Position numbers and translations under genes: made by a program
The notes under the pieces: generated by a model
What the model was told of the DNA's origin: nothing
Databases searched by the model: none
What the model saw: only the letters and a program-made list of their open reading frames with translations
Source: Cellulomonas humilata
GTDB lineage: Bacteria > Actinomycetota > Actinomycetes > Actinomycetales > Cellulomonadaceae
Assembly: GCF_030814415.1 (NCBI RefSeq)
Contig: NZ_JAUSVB010000003.1
Span: 372,001 to 436,000, forward strand
Direction: 5' to 3'
DNA length: 64,000 nt
In this document: positions 11,110 through 14,913 of the stretch, in pieces
Position numbering within the stretch: the first letter of the stretch is position 1
How the letters are laid out: the number at the start of each line of letters is the position of its first letter

Positions 11110-12089
11110 CCCAGCTCGGTCAGCTGGTCGCTGAGGGACGCGACCGCGTCGGCGTTCCGGACCCCGGCCTCGCCGGCCGCGAACGGGACGAGGAGGTACT
11201 TCTTCTCCCGGACGGCCGTGAGCTGGCTGGTCGCCGGGTTGCCCTCGAGCAGCTCGATCTTCTTGTCCGCGGTGTTCCAGGCGGCGTCGACGAGCACGAT
11301 GACGTCCGGGTCCGCGGCCACGACCTGCTCCCAGCCGGCCGACGTCCAGGTGTCGTGCACGTCCGCGAAGATGTTGGTGAGCCCCGCCGCGTCCATGATC
11401 ATCTGCGGGGCGCCGATGCCCGCCCCGACGTACGGGGTGTCCGTCCCGGAGCTGTACCAGAGCGCGGTCGTCTCCGTGGTGGGCTTCTGCACGGCCTCCA
11501 GCGTGGCGTCCTGCTCGGCGATCAGCTCCTCCGCCCGCTCGGGGACCCCGAAGATCGCCGCGACCTCGCGGATCTCGTCCGCGACCTCGTCGAACGTCAG
11601 CGGGTCGGGCATGTAGCCCGCCTCCTTGCACGCCGCGGGGGAGACGTACGTCGTGATCCCGAGGTTCTGCAGGGCCGCGCGGTCGCCGGCTCCGTCCGCC
11701 GAGAAGTTGGACTCCCAGCCGCCGTAGACGAAGTCCGGCTCCAGCCCGAGCAGCGCCTCCTGGCCGGGCACCTTGTCCGAGACGACCGGGACGGCGTCGT
11801 ACGCAGCCTCGTACTCCGCCGGGACGGGGCCGTCCGCGAACGCCGTGCCGATCAGCGCGTCCTGGAGCCCCAGCGCCAGGAGCATCTCCGTCGCGGTCGA
11901 CTTGATGGTGACGACCTTGGTGGGCGGCGCGGTGACCGTGACCTCGGTGCCGCAGTTGTCGAGGGTGACGGGGGCGAACGCGGCGCTCGTCGTGGCGCTC
12001 GGTGACGCCTGCGGGGTGCTCCCGGTGGAGCAGGCCGTCAAGGTGAGCGCGACAGCGGTGAGGACGAGGACGGGACGGATCCTGGGCAT
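11106..12089 (-). CDS. Putative F420-0/Fo ABC importer, substrate-binding lipoprotein
   Basis: A 327-residue periplasmic-binding-fold lipoprotein of the FecB/BtuF class. Signal peptide ends in the lipobox LTAC, with lipidated Cys at residue 20, then a Ser/Thr/Pro linker. The mature part has the FecB-like start (VVTIKSTATEMLLALGL) and the central DFVYGGW segment. It should bind the imported ligand outside the membrane. The ATG at 12089 gives a good signal peptide although the nearest purine-rich stretch is weak. First gene of a four-gene operon ending in cofD; a structured 200-nt leader precedes it. Ligand assignment rests on neighbours. Confidence 0.8.
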   Translation of the reverse strand: MPRIRPVLVLTAVALTLTACSTGSTPQASPSATTSAAFAPVTLDNCGTEVTVTAPPTKVVTIKSTATEMLLALGLQDALIGTAFADGPVPAEYEAAYDAVPVVSDKVPGQEALLGLEPDFVYGGWESNFSADGAGDRAALQNLGITTYVSPAACKEAGYMPDPLTFDEVADEIREVAAIFGVPERAEELIAEQDATLEAVQKPTTETTALWYSSGTDTPYVGAGIGAPQMIMDAAGLTNIFADVHDTWTSAGWEQVVAADPDVIVLVDAAWNTADKKIELLEGNPATSQLTAVREKKYLLVPFAAGEAGVRNADAVASLSDQLTELG

Positions 12090-12297
12090 CGGGATGAGGG
12101 GCTCCGGGGCGGTGGCGGGGCGCGCGAGCACGTCGCTCGCACGCGGGGGTGGGGTGCACGTCGCACCTCCGGAGGGCCGCCCAGGACCGGGCGGCACGAC
12201 CCGGCCACAGCTGGTCAGGTTCCGGGCACAGAGTAGGCCTGGGGGGTGGCGTGTCGGCAAGTGGGCAGCCTGGAGACGATGCTCACCCCCACGCAGG
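12090..12297 (-). promoter_or_regulatory. Promoter and structured leader of the F420 importer-cofD operon
   Basis: On the minus strand TTGCCG and TACTCT (19 bp apart) could form a promoter near 12235. Downstream come several perfect inverted repeats: 12176-12195 (7-bp arms, 6-nt loop), the palindrome CCTCCGGAGG, 12153-12167 (GGTGC arms) and 12124-12140 (GCGAGC arms). The last two hairpins carry the same five-base loop, GACGT on the RNA-sense strand. A strong Shine-Dalgarno GGAGG stands 6 nt before a GTG (12159) that is out of frame with the binding protein. No known riboswitch class was recognised. Confidence 0.4.
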
Positions 12298-12720
12298 TCA
12301 GAGTGCTGCGCGGATCGCCTCCGCCTGGCTGTCGAGCTCCGCCCGTGCCGGGTTCGAGCCCCAGCGCGCGCTGATGCGGAAGCCGTCGCCGGCGGTGCGG
12401 GGGAAGACGTGCAGGTGCGAGTGGAAGACCTCCTGGAAGGCCGCCTCGCCGTCGGCGTAGAAGAGGTTGACGCCCTCGCTGGGCAGCGGCGACCTCCGCA
12501 ACGCCCCGGCGACCGCCCGGGCGACGGCGAACATCTCGGCGGCGACGTCGTCGTCCAGGTCCGCCAGGGTCGGCAGGTGCGACTTCGGCACAACGAGGAC
12601 GTGGCCCGCGGTCACCGGGTCGATGTCCATGAACGCCAGGACCGTCGCCGACTCGTGCACGACCGAGGCGTCCAGCTCGCGCGTGATGATCCGGCAGAAG
12701 GGGCAGTCCGCGGTCGTCAT
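12298..12720 (-). CDS. HIT family hydrolase
   Basis: A 140-residue histidine-triad protein. The catalytic triad HSHLHVFPR is at residues ~100-108 and the N terminus carries CPFC, one half of the zinc site seen in many HIT enzymes. Such proteins hydrolyse nucleoside phosphoramidates, AMP-lysine or dinucleoside polyphosphates; the physiological substrate is unclear. It reads in the same direction as the F420 importer operon, 209 bp upstream of it. Confidence 0.88.
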   Translation of the reverse strand: MTTADCPFCRIITRELDASVVHESATVLAFMDIDPVTAGHVLVVPKSHLPTLADLDDDVAAEMFAVARAVAGALRRSPLPSEGVNLFYADGEAAFQEVFHSHLHVFPRTAGDGFRISARWGSNPARAELDSQAEAIRAAL

Positions 12721-12806
12721 CCGCCGATGATGGCAGCGGTCGCGCCCTCCGGCCCGGCGGGGGCCAGGCTTGGGCGTCTGCCCAGCTGTTCACGTGGTTG
12801 CAGGCC

Positions 12807-12861
12807 TTGCTGTGGGGGCAGCCCTGGCCTAGGATCGAACACATGTTCGACGATGGCTGAG
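12807..12861 (+). promoter_or_regulatory. SOS (LexA) box overlapping a promoter, with a five-codon leaderless ORF
   Basis: A perfect actinobacterial LexA palindrome, TCGAAC-ACAT-GTTCGA, lies at 12835-12850. On the plus strand it overlaps the -10 of a good promoter: TTGCTG (12807-12812), 17 bp, TAGGAT (12830-12835). An ATG at 12843, 7 nt after the -10, begins a leaderless reading frame of only five codons (MFDDG, stop at 12858-12860). A 12-bp hairpin follows. No full gene reads plus-strand here; the palindrome could also serve the HIT gene 115 bp away on the minus strand. Confidence 0.6.
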
Positions 12862-12897
12862 CGGTGATCCGGGGCTCGGGGAGGTCCCGGATCGCCG
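12862..12897. terminator. Inverted repeat between the SOS promoter and the response regulator
   Basis: CGGTGATCCGGG pairs with CCCGGATCGCCG (one G-T wobble) around a 12-nt loop. It could end either a very short SOS-driven plus-strand RNA or the minus-strand two-component operon, whose last stop is at 12940. No T-tract on either side. Confidence 0.4.
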
Positions 12898-12939
12898 TTC
12901 ATGCCTGTACCGACCAGGCGCGGCCGTCAGTGGCGGACG

Positions 12940-13602
12940 TCAACGACTGCCCGGAACCACGAGCCCGGACTCGTAGGCGAGCACCACCAGCTGGCCCCGG
13001 TCACGAGCGTGGAGCTTCGTCATGGCCCGGTTCACATGGGTCTTGGCGGTCATCGGGGTGATCACCATGCGTGCTGCGATCTCGTCGTTCGTCAGTCCCT
13101 CGGCGACCAGGGTCACGGCTTCGCGCTCACGCGTGGTCAGGTGGCGCAGCGCCGCGCCGCGAGCCGGGTGGGGTGGCCTGGCGACGTACCGGTCGATCAG
13201 CCGGCGAGTGATCGACGGTGCCAGGAGGGCGTCCCCGCGTGCCGCGACGCGGACAGCGTGCAGCAGGTCCTCGGGGACGATGTCCTTGACCAGGAACCCC
13301 GCCGCACCGGCGCGGAGCGCCTCGAAGACGTACTCGTCGAGCCCGTAGTTGGTGAGGATGACGACGTGCACCCCGGCGAGGTCGGGGTCGAGGGCGATGC
13401 GCCGTGTCGCCTCGATGCCGTCGACGCCCGGCATCTGGACGTCGATCAGCGCGACGTCCGGGCGGAGCTCGCCCGCTAGTGCGACGCCCTGCTCCCCGTC
13501 CGCAGCCTCGCCGACCACGGCGATGTCGTCCTCCAGGTCCAGGAGTGCGCGGAACCCGCTGCGCAGGAGCGGCTGGTCGTCGACCAGCAGGACGCGGATC
13601 AC
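12940..13602 (-). CDS. NarL/LuxR-family response regulator
   Basis: A 220-residue response regulator: receiver domain (LLVDDQ acidic pocket, phospho-acceptor Asp in ALIDVQMPG, conserved Lys in FLVKDI) in residues 1-120 and a LuxR-type helix-turn-helix (LTTREREAVTLVAEGLTN) near 150-205. Start ATG overlaps the stop of the sensor kinase gene (ATGA), so the pair is translationally coupled. The regulated genes are unknown; the divergent small membrane protein is a candidate. Confidence 0.92.
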   Translation of the reverse strand: MIRVLLVDDQPLLRSGFRALLDLEDDIAVVGEAADGEQGVALAGELRPDVALIDVQMPGVDGIEATRRIALDPDLAGVHVVILTNYGLDEYVFEALRAGAAGFLVKDIVPEDLLHAVRVAARGDALLAPSITRRLIDRYVARPPHPARGAALRHLTTREREAVTLVAEGLTNDEIAARMVITPMTAKTHVNRAMTKLHARDRGQLVVLAYESGLVVPGSR

Positions 13603-14723
13603 GACGTGCGGTCCACGGGCAGCTCGACCCGGACGGTGAACCCGCCCTCGCTGCGGGCTCGCGCGCGCAGGCGACCGCCGAGCGCGCTGACGCGCTCCTG
13701 CATCCCGAGCAGTCCCACACCGGGCACCGGGACGGTGTCCGGCGCTGCGCGGCCGTCGTCGTCGACCTGGACCGTGAGCAGGTCGGGCCGGCAGTCGATC
13801 GTGACCGCTGCCGTCGTGGCGCCGGCGTGCCGGGCGACGTTGGTGAGCGACTCCTGAACGATCCGGTAGACGGTCCGGCCCACCGCGGCCGGCACGTCGC
13901 CGTCCTCACCGTTCATGGTCAGCGTCGCGTCCAGCCCGATCGAGCGGGCACCCTGCACGAGCTCGGGGACGTGGTCGAGCCCACGTGCCGGGGTCAGGTC
14001 GTCGTCACGCAGCGCCGTCAGGGTCGCGCGCAGCTCACGGGTGGCCTCGCGGCCGGCCTCCTGGATGGCCAACAAGGCCTCCGGCACCTCCTCCCCGCGC
14101 CGGCGCGCGACGTGGACGGCGACCTCGGACTGCACCTTGATGATCGAGATCTGGTGCGTGAGCGAGTCGTGCAGCTCCCGCGCGAGGTGCAGCCGCTCCT
14201 CGTCGGCACGACGCTTCGCGACCTCCTCCCGGGTGCGCTCCGCCTCGTAGGCTCGCCGCTCCGCCTGCCGCAGCGCCTCGCCCGCGGCGGCCGCCGCGAT
14301 CAGCCACGCCAGCTCGAGCGCGTCCCGGGCGTGCACGAACGCAGCCCCCGCATCGCTCCCGGAGACCAGGGCCACCAGCGGGAGTGCGGCCAGCATCGCC
14401 ACGCTCGCGATCACGGTGGCGGTGCGGTGCCCTGCCCGCATCGCGATGAACACCGCGAACAGGAAGGCCACCGCCGGGACGTCGTAGCCGGCGGCCTGGT
14501 AGCCCACCGCACACAGCCCCGTGACCGCCAGGACCGCAACCGGAGCCCGGCGACCGACGGCGAGCGCCAGCCCGCCGGACGCCAGCAGCGCGAGACCGAG
14601 CAGGTCACTGCCGCCGGGTGGTCGGTCGCCCGACAGTCCGGCGAGCACGAGCGACACCGCCACCCCGACGGCGATCGCTGCGTCTCTGACGGGCGCAGGC
14701 ACGTGCATCCGCCCTGGGCTCAT
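13599..14723 (-). CDS. Membrane sensor histidine kinase (HisKA_3/NarX type)
   Basis: A 374-residue kinase. About four to five membrane helices in residues 10-140, then a coiled segment, the dimerisation/phosphotransfer box ARELHDSLTHQISIIKVQ (phospho-His in ELHDS), and a HATPase domain with N box IVQESLTNVARH and GLLGMQERVSALGG. There is no sizeable extracellular sensor domain, so it may sense envelope state. The ATG at 14723 lies 6 nt after a TACGGT -10 box (14730-14735 complement), which suggests a leaderless transcript. Partner of the response regulator encoded immediately downstream. Confidence 0.9.
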   Translation of the reverse strand: MSPGRMHVPAPVRDAAIAVGVAVSLVLAGLSGDRPPGGSDLLGLALLASGGLALAVGRRAPVAVLAVTGLCAVGYQAAGYDVPAVAFLFAVFIAMRAGHRTATVIASVAMLAALPLVALVSGSDAGAAFVHARDALELAWLIAAAAAGEALRQAERRAYEAERTREEVAKRRADEERLHLARELHDSLTHQISIIKVQSEVAVHVARRRGEEVPEALLAIQEAGREATRELRATLTALRDDDLTPARGLDHVPELVQGARSIGLDATLTMNGEDGDVPAAVGRTVYRIVQESLTNVARHAGATTAAVTIDCRPDLLTVQVDDDGRAAPDTVPVPGVGLLGMQERVSALGGRLRARARSEGGFTVRVELPVDRTS

Positions 14724-14913
14724 ACGGGCACCGTAGTCCGGTGCTGCCGGCGCCCGGATCCTGCTCGGGGACGACGGGCACCTACCGCGGGCGCGGTACC
14801 TCGTCGCGCTCCTGCAGCGTCTGCGGCAGCCAGAGTGCCCGCGTCTGGGGGACGACCGGCGGTCCGTCCGGCGAGAGGCTGCAGGTGACATCAGACGACC
14901 AAGGAGAGCCACC

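Follow-up and report, generated by a model that had tools for sequence, protein, structure and literature searches.

A LexA-box promoter and hairpin in Cellulomonas humilata that seem to outlive a DUF222/HNH nuclease gene

A promoter of the DNA-damage (SOS) response that leads only into five codons and a hairpin raises the question of whether it is what was left behind by a deleted gene or a transcription unit in its own right. Such an arrangement was observed in a window of 64,000 nucleotides from Cellulomonas humilata (assembly GCF_030814415.1, contig NZ_JAUSVB010000003.1, positions 372,001 to 436,000 of the forward strand), and the coordinates below count from the first letter of this window unless a contig or locus is named. 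The answer that we judge somewhat probable from the sequence comparisons is that the element is an SOS transcription unit with a short structured RNA as its product, going back to the 5' end of a nuclease gene since lost, and its promoter and hairpin appear to have stayed under selection beyond the loss of that gene in several species. The parts of the unit are as follows.

12807..12812, + strand: -35 hexamer TTGCTG, as read in the sequence
12830..12835, + strand: -10 hexamer TAGGAT, with one base common to the LexA box
12835..12850, no strand assigned: LexA (SOS) box TCGAACACATGTTCGA, both palindromic half-sites perfect
12843..12860, + strand: five-codon open reading frame (ORF) MFDDG with the predicted leaderless transcript start; the ORF is judged not functional
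12855..12905, + strand: hairpin of the predicted RNA, 22 pairs by RNAfold, one unpaired base at 12902
12866..12893, + strand: hairpin core GATCCGGGGCTCGGGGAGGTCCCGGATC, identical in six of eight genomes
12877..12882, + strand: apical hexaloop CGGGGA, identical in all eight genomes

A preliminary description of this DNA had placed a perfect LexA box on the -10 hexamer of a TTGCTG-17-TAGGAT promoter, and every one of these parts is present, the spacer between the hexamers being 17 nt. The ATG (12843-12845) lies inside the LexA box, 7 nt 3' of the -10 hexamer, and opens a frame reading ATG TTC GAC GAT GGC TGA, with its stop codon at 12858-12860, which bears out the five codons described; the 12-bp hairpin was too small an estimate, with RNAfold extending it to 22 pairs. 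The minimum free energy of 12843-12912 was -42.5 kcal/mol (z -4.8), and none of 200 shuffles was equally stable. Hairpin energy by itself was rejected as a discriminator, since L117, a DUF222 locus that lacks the element, folds equally well, its 70-nt fold energy being -44.2 against -42.6 and -44.6 in two of the unit-bearing genomes (G062 and G046, respectively). The palindromic TCGAAC-N4-GTTCGA box characteristic of the LexA regulon is present in the window, with both half-sites perfect in all eight genomes that carry the unit, and it overlaps the -10 hexamer, though a strict consensus scan was negative for the promoter. The 64-kb window contains a single perfect box (100 shuffles averaged 0.00), and the 4.64-Mb source genome (G000) has one at three places, the reversed control pattern occurring at none. 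The second of these three places precedes imuA' (NF058630), near an error-prone DNA polymerase gene (NF004225), so the motif represents a credible type of LexA operator in this genome. The third (L002 1501-1516; G000:C3:562798) precedes a 156-amino-acid protein with no NCBIfam match. Elsewhere in the same genome, G000:C3:548437-548519 holds three LexA boxes with one mismatch each within 83 bp, which may together control a core SOS gene.

The unit, defined as the -35 hexamer, 17-18 nt, the -10 hexamer with the LexA box, and 15-17 nt to the hairpin core, was found in 8 of 81 Cellulomonas genomes searched and always at one syntenic place, between a substrate-binding protein gene and a GntR/aminotransferase gene, here named the MocR-type gene. 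A blastn search of the region against 39 genomes detected it in two relatives, and the genus-wide search (expectation value, E, <= 1e-4) returned eight genomes, seven of them with the unit (G000 included); in the remaining one, G057, the match was limited to the promoter part. When the first seven units were used to build a covariance model restricted to the hairpin, without the LexA box, the search gave an eighth strong match, in G062 (E 1.6e-9), where a perfect LexA box stands at the right distance upstream and two core pairs are compensated; since a model without the box recovered a place with a perfect box, the hairpin and the SOS promoter belong together. At E <= 0.01 this model matched 14 of the 81 genomes, six of them weakly (G075, G003, G018, G087, G078 and G048; E 1e-4 to 1e-2), and these six were not counted, having no LexA box in the 110 bases upstream; second matches in G000, G046 and G021 were the opposite strand of the same place. 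A further model (R3), built from all eight units, recovered the same eight among 221 genomes of the family, confined to one of 25 genera and with one match each (E <= 1e-4), although both this search and the genus-wide one with the first hairpin model used stricter filters and weak matches may be lost. A wide distribution was considered and rejected: a loose pattern of right half-site plus stem matched 34 stretches in a wider collection of genome contigs, of which only five had a perfect LexA box, all from Cellulomonas (C. xylanilytica, C. terrae, Leaf334, Leaf395 and Root485), and the other 29, with 2-6 mismatches in the left half-site and different loops, were taken as chance. A mobile or repeated element was likewise rejected, given the single place per genome and the lack of any viral match to the hairpin pattern, the sole viral match to the looser pattern carrying mismatches at three of the six positions of the left half-site.

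The comparison with sister species called for in the preliminary description, in search of an HNH gene at the same place, yielded an ORF with DUF222 and HNH domains closely 3' of the hairpin at the orthologous place in G062 (L100) and G046 (L097); no such domains were detectable around the unit of the window. In neither genome does the leaderless ATG share the frame of the DUF222 body, and in G046, a one-contig genome, an additional frame break lies inside the domain; in G062 the DUF222 body itself is open, which makes it the weaker case for decay. The remaining six genomes are hereafter called gene-less: tblastn with four intact-looking DUF222 proteins of the genus found no piece of such a gene in the 11-19.5 kb around their units (best E 0.45). 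A tree of five neighbouring genes groups these six with a support of 1.000, the position of G021 among them being poorly supported (0.486), and its order outward from the six is G046, then the G065/G053 pair, then G062/G005.

That the unit started as the front of such a gene is also consistent with the DUF222 genes of the genus. Among 30 Cellulomonas DUF222 loci, which are those taken for the best matches rather than all matches, the scanned stretch contains a box with no more than one mismatch in 21, and 10 of these 21 have, within the box, a start codon (nine ATG, one GTG) that opens a frame of 462-613 codons; two of the 30 (L114 and L115) are the unit itself, and in L124 and L134 the box is more than 1 kb from the match. 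The leaderless start codon inside the LexA box that marks these genes is present in the window, at 12843, and MFDDG resembles the starts of two SOS-box DUF222-type proteins of G057 (MFEDG and MFENG), so that the five codons are best read as the stump of a leaderless SOS-box DUF222 gene. In G057, the F420-transporter neighbourhood also contains a long DUF222-type ORF (L101 6364-8187; MFEDG...) with this SOS promoter; it lies on the other side of the ATP-binding cassette (ABC) transporter genes, and the hairpin model finds nothing there. The source genome itself has one DUF222 match elsewhere, with a one-mismatch LexA box (G000:C5:195140-195155) about 490 bp upstream. An analysis of LexA in Mycobacterium tuberculosis describes an SOS box and 10 HNH-domain genes of the 13E12 family (PMC4181829), and five putative HNH endonucleases are listed among mitomycin C-induced, RecA-dependent genes in another account (PMC8151990). 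As far as these accounts go, the SOS box TCGAAC(N)4GTTCGA is common to the 13E12 genes under LexA control, their Cellulomonas relatives and the window unit, whereas the window unit differs from those genes in having no detectable DUF222/HNH sequence and in possessing a hairpin that the model, at the threshold given, locates nowhere else among the 221 genomes of the family.

One account of these observations would be a plain remnant, that is, a promoter and first codons left without function after deletion of a DUF222/HNH gene. The HNH ORF still in place in two sisters, the SOS boxes over DUF222 start codons elsewhere in the genus and the short, unconserved reading frame all agree with it; the pattern of conservation does not. 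In the six gene-less genomes, only 1 of 28 columns of the hairpin core varies, against 609 of 1103 fourfold-degenerate columns of the neighbouring genes (P about 6e-9 under equal rates, a value that overstates the case, the 28-nt core having been delimited after its conservation was seen). Among the genome pairs listed with an identical core, fourfold identity was 0.62-0.82. The two genomes in which the core is not identical are G063, with one change, and G062, with seven changes that retain pairing. Mean pairwise identity over the eight genomes was highest in the LexA box (0.924) and the hairpin (0.867), followed by the -35 and -10 hexamers (0.774 each), the linker (0.597), a stretch further upstream (0.487), the downstream sequence (0.432), the spacer (0.349) and the sequence directly upstream of the -35 hexamer (0.184). 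TTG of the -35 hexamer and TA...T of the -10 hexamer are retained in all eight genomes (TAGGAT in three, TAGCAT in two, and TAACAT, TAGGGT and TAGAGT), and the spacer is 17 nt in seven genomes and 18 nt in one, the best of spacings 16-19 having been taken. On sequence grounds, this profile is what a functioning promoter under repression and a functioning hairpin would leave. Hexamers and box are thus retained while the spacer and near flanks drift. That they and the hairpin are conserved even in the six genomes without a detectable gene speaks for a functional short RNA; a plain remnant we regard as improbable. The remnant of an HNH gene proposed earlier is supported as the origin of the unit, with an HNH ORF at the same place in two sisters, and seems insufficient as a full explanation, the unit being conserved where the gene is undetectable.

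If the unit is retained for a function, this could lie in a peptide, an RNA or a site in the DNA. A five-residue leader peptide or micropeptide has in its favour that the predicted transcript begins at an ATG; the frame opening in the box, however, runs for 5, 77, 29, 5, 57, 8 (in G021, which has CTG for ATG and hence lacks a start codon), 5 and 97 codons across the eight genomes. Neither frame length nor start codon being conserved, the micropeptide was rejected, its probability being close to negligible, and the five-codon ORF looks incidental. The stem is the better preserved part. In the alignment of the eight genomes, 91.7% of the cells are paired and four pairs are changed on both sides, values reached by 8 of 500 shuffles for the percentage paired, 9 of 500 for double-changed pairs and 2 of 500 for the covariation score, with slid registers scoring lower, although the register of the lower stem was chosen after a first register had fitted badly. 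Between G046 and G062, as read from the alignment rows, five of the six core codons that differ encode another amino acid, and the stem is still paired. The conserved structure with paired changes expected of a small RNA is thus present to a moderate degree, the alignment having eight sequences and its core changes coming from one genome. The + strand also folds better than the - strand in seven of the eight genomes, the exception being G062 (-41.8 for the + strand against -47.8).

The same inverted repeat could instead act in the DNA as a site bound or cleaved by, for example, HNH/DUF222 proteins encoded elsewhere. The imperfect palindrome does adjoin the HNH ORF in two genomes, and DUF222 matches were found elsewhere in seven of the eight unit-bearing genomes. 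The eighth, G021, keeps the unit without any DUF222 match (E <= 0.001), the element occurs at one place per genome and always with the promoter, and the changes in G062 preserve pairing rather than sequence, so that a DNA-level site appears highly improbable.

The main rival to a short RNA is a transcriptional lock, in which the hairpin would be a terminator or pause that halts SOS transcription just after its start; it would first have damped a dangerous nuclease gene and would now shield the neighbouring genes from a damage-induced promoter. The predicted start is followed after 12 nt by this very stable hairpin, which in the six gene-less genomes lies near the stop codon of a convergent gene. 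Like an intrinsic terminator, the unit has a stable GC-rich hairpin soon after the predicted transcription start; unlike one, it shows no U-run, with no T-run 3' of the stem and no terminator found by a scan of 12700-13000, and its loop is common to all eight genomes. Actinobacterial terminators often lack a U-run, which makes this deficit less telling. A lock would leave unexplained why the promoter and LexA box were retained at all, and likewise the shared 6-nt loop; we consider both its present role and the history attached to it rather unlikely.

Several results weigh against the short structured RNA itself, beside the late delimitation of the core and the late choice of the lower-stem register given above. 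The strict sigma-70 scan of 12700-13000 found no promoter, and TTGCTG agrees with TTGACA at just three of six positions. The missing T-run and the negative terminator scan tell against this reading as well, as does the better folding of the - strand in G062. G062 is the sole source of both doubly changed core pairs, and further pair types were no better than in shuffles (315 of 500). The unit is limited to one subclade, three members of which (G065, G053 and G005) are without it. When four of the eight genomes (G000, G064, G023 and G089) were searched for sequences complementary to the loop, no convincing or start-proximal conserved target emerged: matches outside the unit numbered 4, 5, 5 and 4, respectively (18 in all), against 4, 3, 3 and 0 for the reversed pattern, and two sets of orthologues were among them, one present in all four genomes and located within a long coding frame, the other a pair (G089 and G023). 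A CsrA sponge, considered on account of GGA in the loop, was rejected, since CsrA (PF02599) was found in four of the 11 genomes searched and had no match in the six gene-less unit-bearing genomes. The conservation of the CGGGGA loop in all eight genomes suggests that it may pair with a target or be bound by a protein.

For the short structured RNA, the following course of events is proposed. LexA would sit on the -10 hexamer and the transcription start, silencing the promoter, and upon DNA damage and inactivation of LexA, RNA polymerase would start at or near 12843. The predicted product is a leaderless RNA of about 60-65 nt that would end at the hairpin and consist nearly entirely of it, 22 bp with a CGGGGA loop, and it may act in trans through the loop or through a bound protein. 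The unit would have arisen as the front part, promoter and first codons, of a DUF222/HNH gene between the F420-0 transporter operon and the MocR-type gene; the nuclease gene was probably lost in the ancestry of the six species and seems broken in two, and promoter and hairpin would have stayed under selection thereafter. The fullest form of this proposal, a trans-acting LexA-controlled hairpin RNA from the 5' end of an HNH (13E12-type) mRNA, with its own role in the damage response and retained after loss of the nuclease, is offered tentatively as a possibility; to it belongs a conversion of gene into RNA seen in intermediate stages, from an apparently broken gene with hairpin (G046 and G062) to the hairpin alone (the six). 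An RNA of about 60 nt had been suggested before as antisense to the downstream region. The short RNA finds support in the conserved promoter and hairpin; downstream of the unit, though, lie the end of a response regulator gene in three genomes, the end of the MocR-type gene in three and the DUF222 ORF in two, and with such differing genes an antisense effect is not supported as the conserved role. Among the closest known cases is DinR of Klebsiella pneumoniae, a LexA-controlled small RNA (PMC10907235). As far as that account goes, the two have in common that a small RNA induced by damage is linked to a gene under LexA control, the one in the window being only predicted, and they differ in that the window RNA would be about 60-65 nt long and 5'-derived, with its own gene gone. 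No SOS hairpin RNA of this kind was named for this phylum in the titles and abstract beginnings of the open-licence literature, and those on LexA-regulated small RNAs, on DUF222/13E12 with LexA and on Cellulomonas small RNAs did not report the unit. A cmscan of 11900-13200 against 4227 Rfam families (E up to 10) gave no match on the unit and four weak matches, all below the gathering score and all outside it.

The surroundings of the unit vary between genomes. In the window the neighbours are the F420-0 ABC transporter (TIGR03868 and TIGR03869), a HIT-domain protein and a response regulator and histidine kinase pair. Among the loci read, G000 and G064 alone have the HIT gene between unit and transporter, and the response regulator/kinase pair is shared by just these two and G063; the stretches 12298-12720 and 12940-14726 appear as variable cargo flanking the unit on both sides. 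No LexA-like box was found in the gap between the substrate-binding protein gene and the MocR-type gene in any of seven other genomes, the gap being about 190-220 bp in G065 and G053 and holding other ORFs in G005 and G051, and likewise without a box in G008, G047 and G048. Two loci at contig ends of about 2.2-2.3 kb (L108 and L113) were left out of the synteny comparison, and L101 (G057) had no MocR match in 17 kb. On the - strand, 12150-12260 forms the leader 5' of the substrate-binding gene of the F420-0 transporter, a candidate cis-regulatory leader that is strongly conserved in 14 of the 15 Cellulomonas loci aligned, with no Rfam match; the exception is G051, for which the coordinates used may be off.

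What is new here is that the RNA part of a gene seems to outlive the gene itself under selection in several species. If real, the unit would mean that the SOS response of an actinobacterium has a compact RNA among its outputs, and its relatives would provide a natural series of a hairpin outliving its nuclease gene in culturable soil and plant bacteria. It also carries a warning, in that an apparent remnant of the 13E12 type can still be a working SOS unit.
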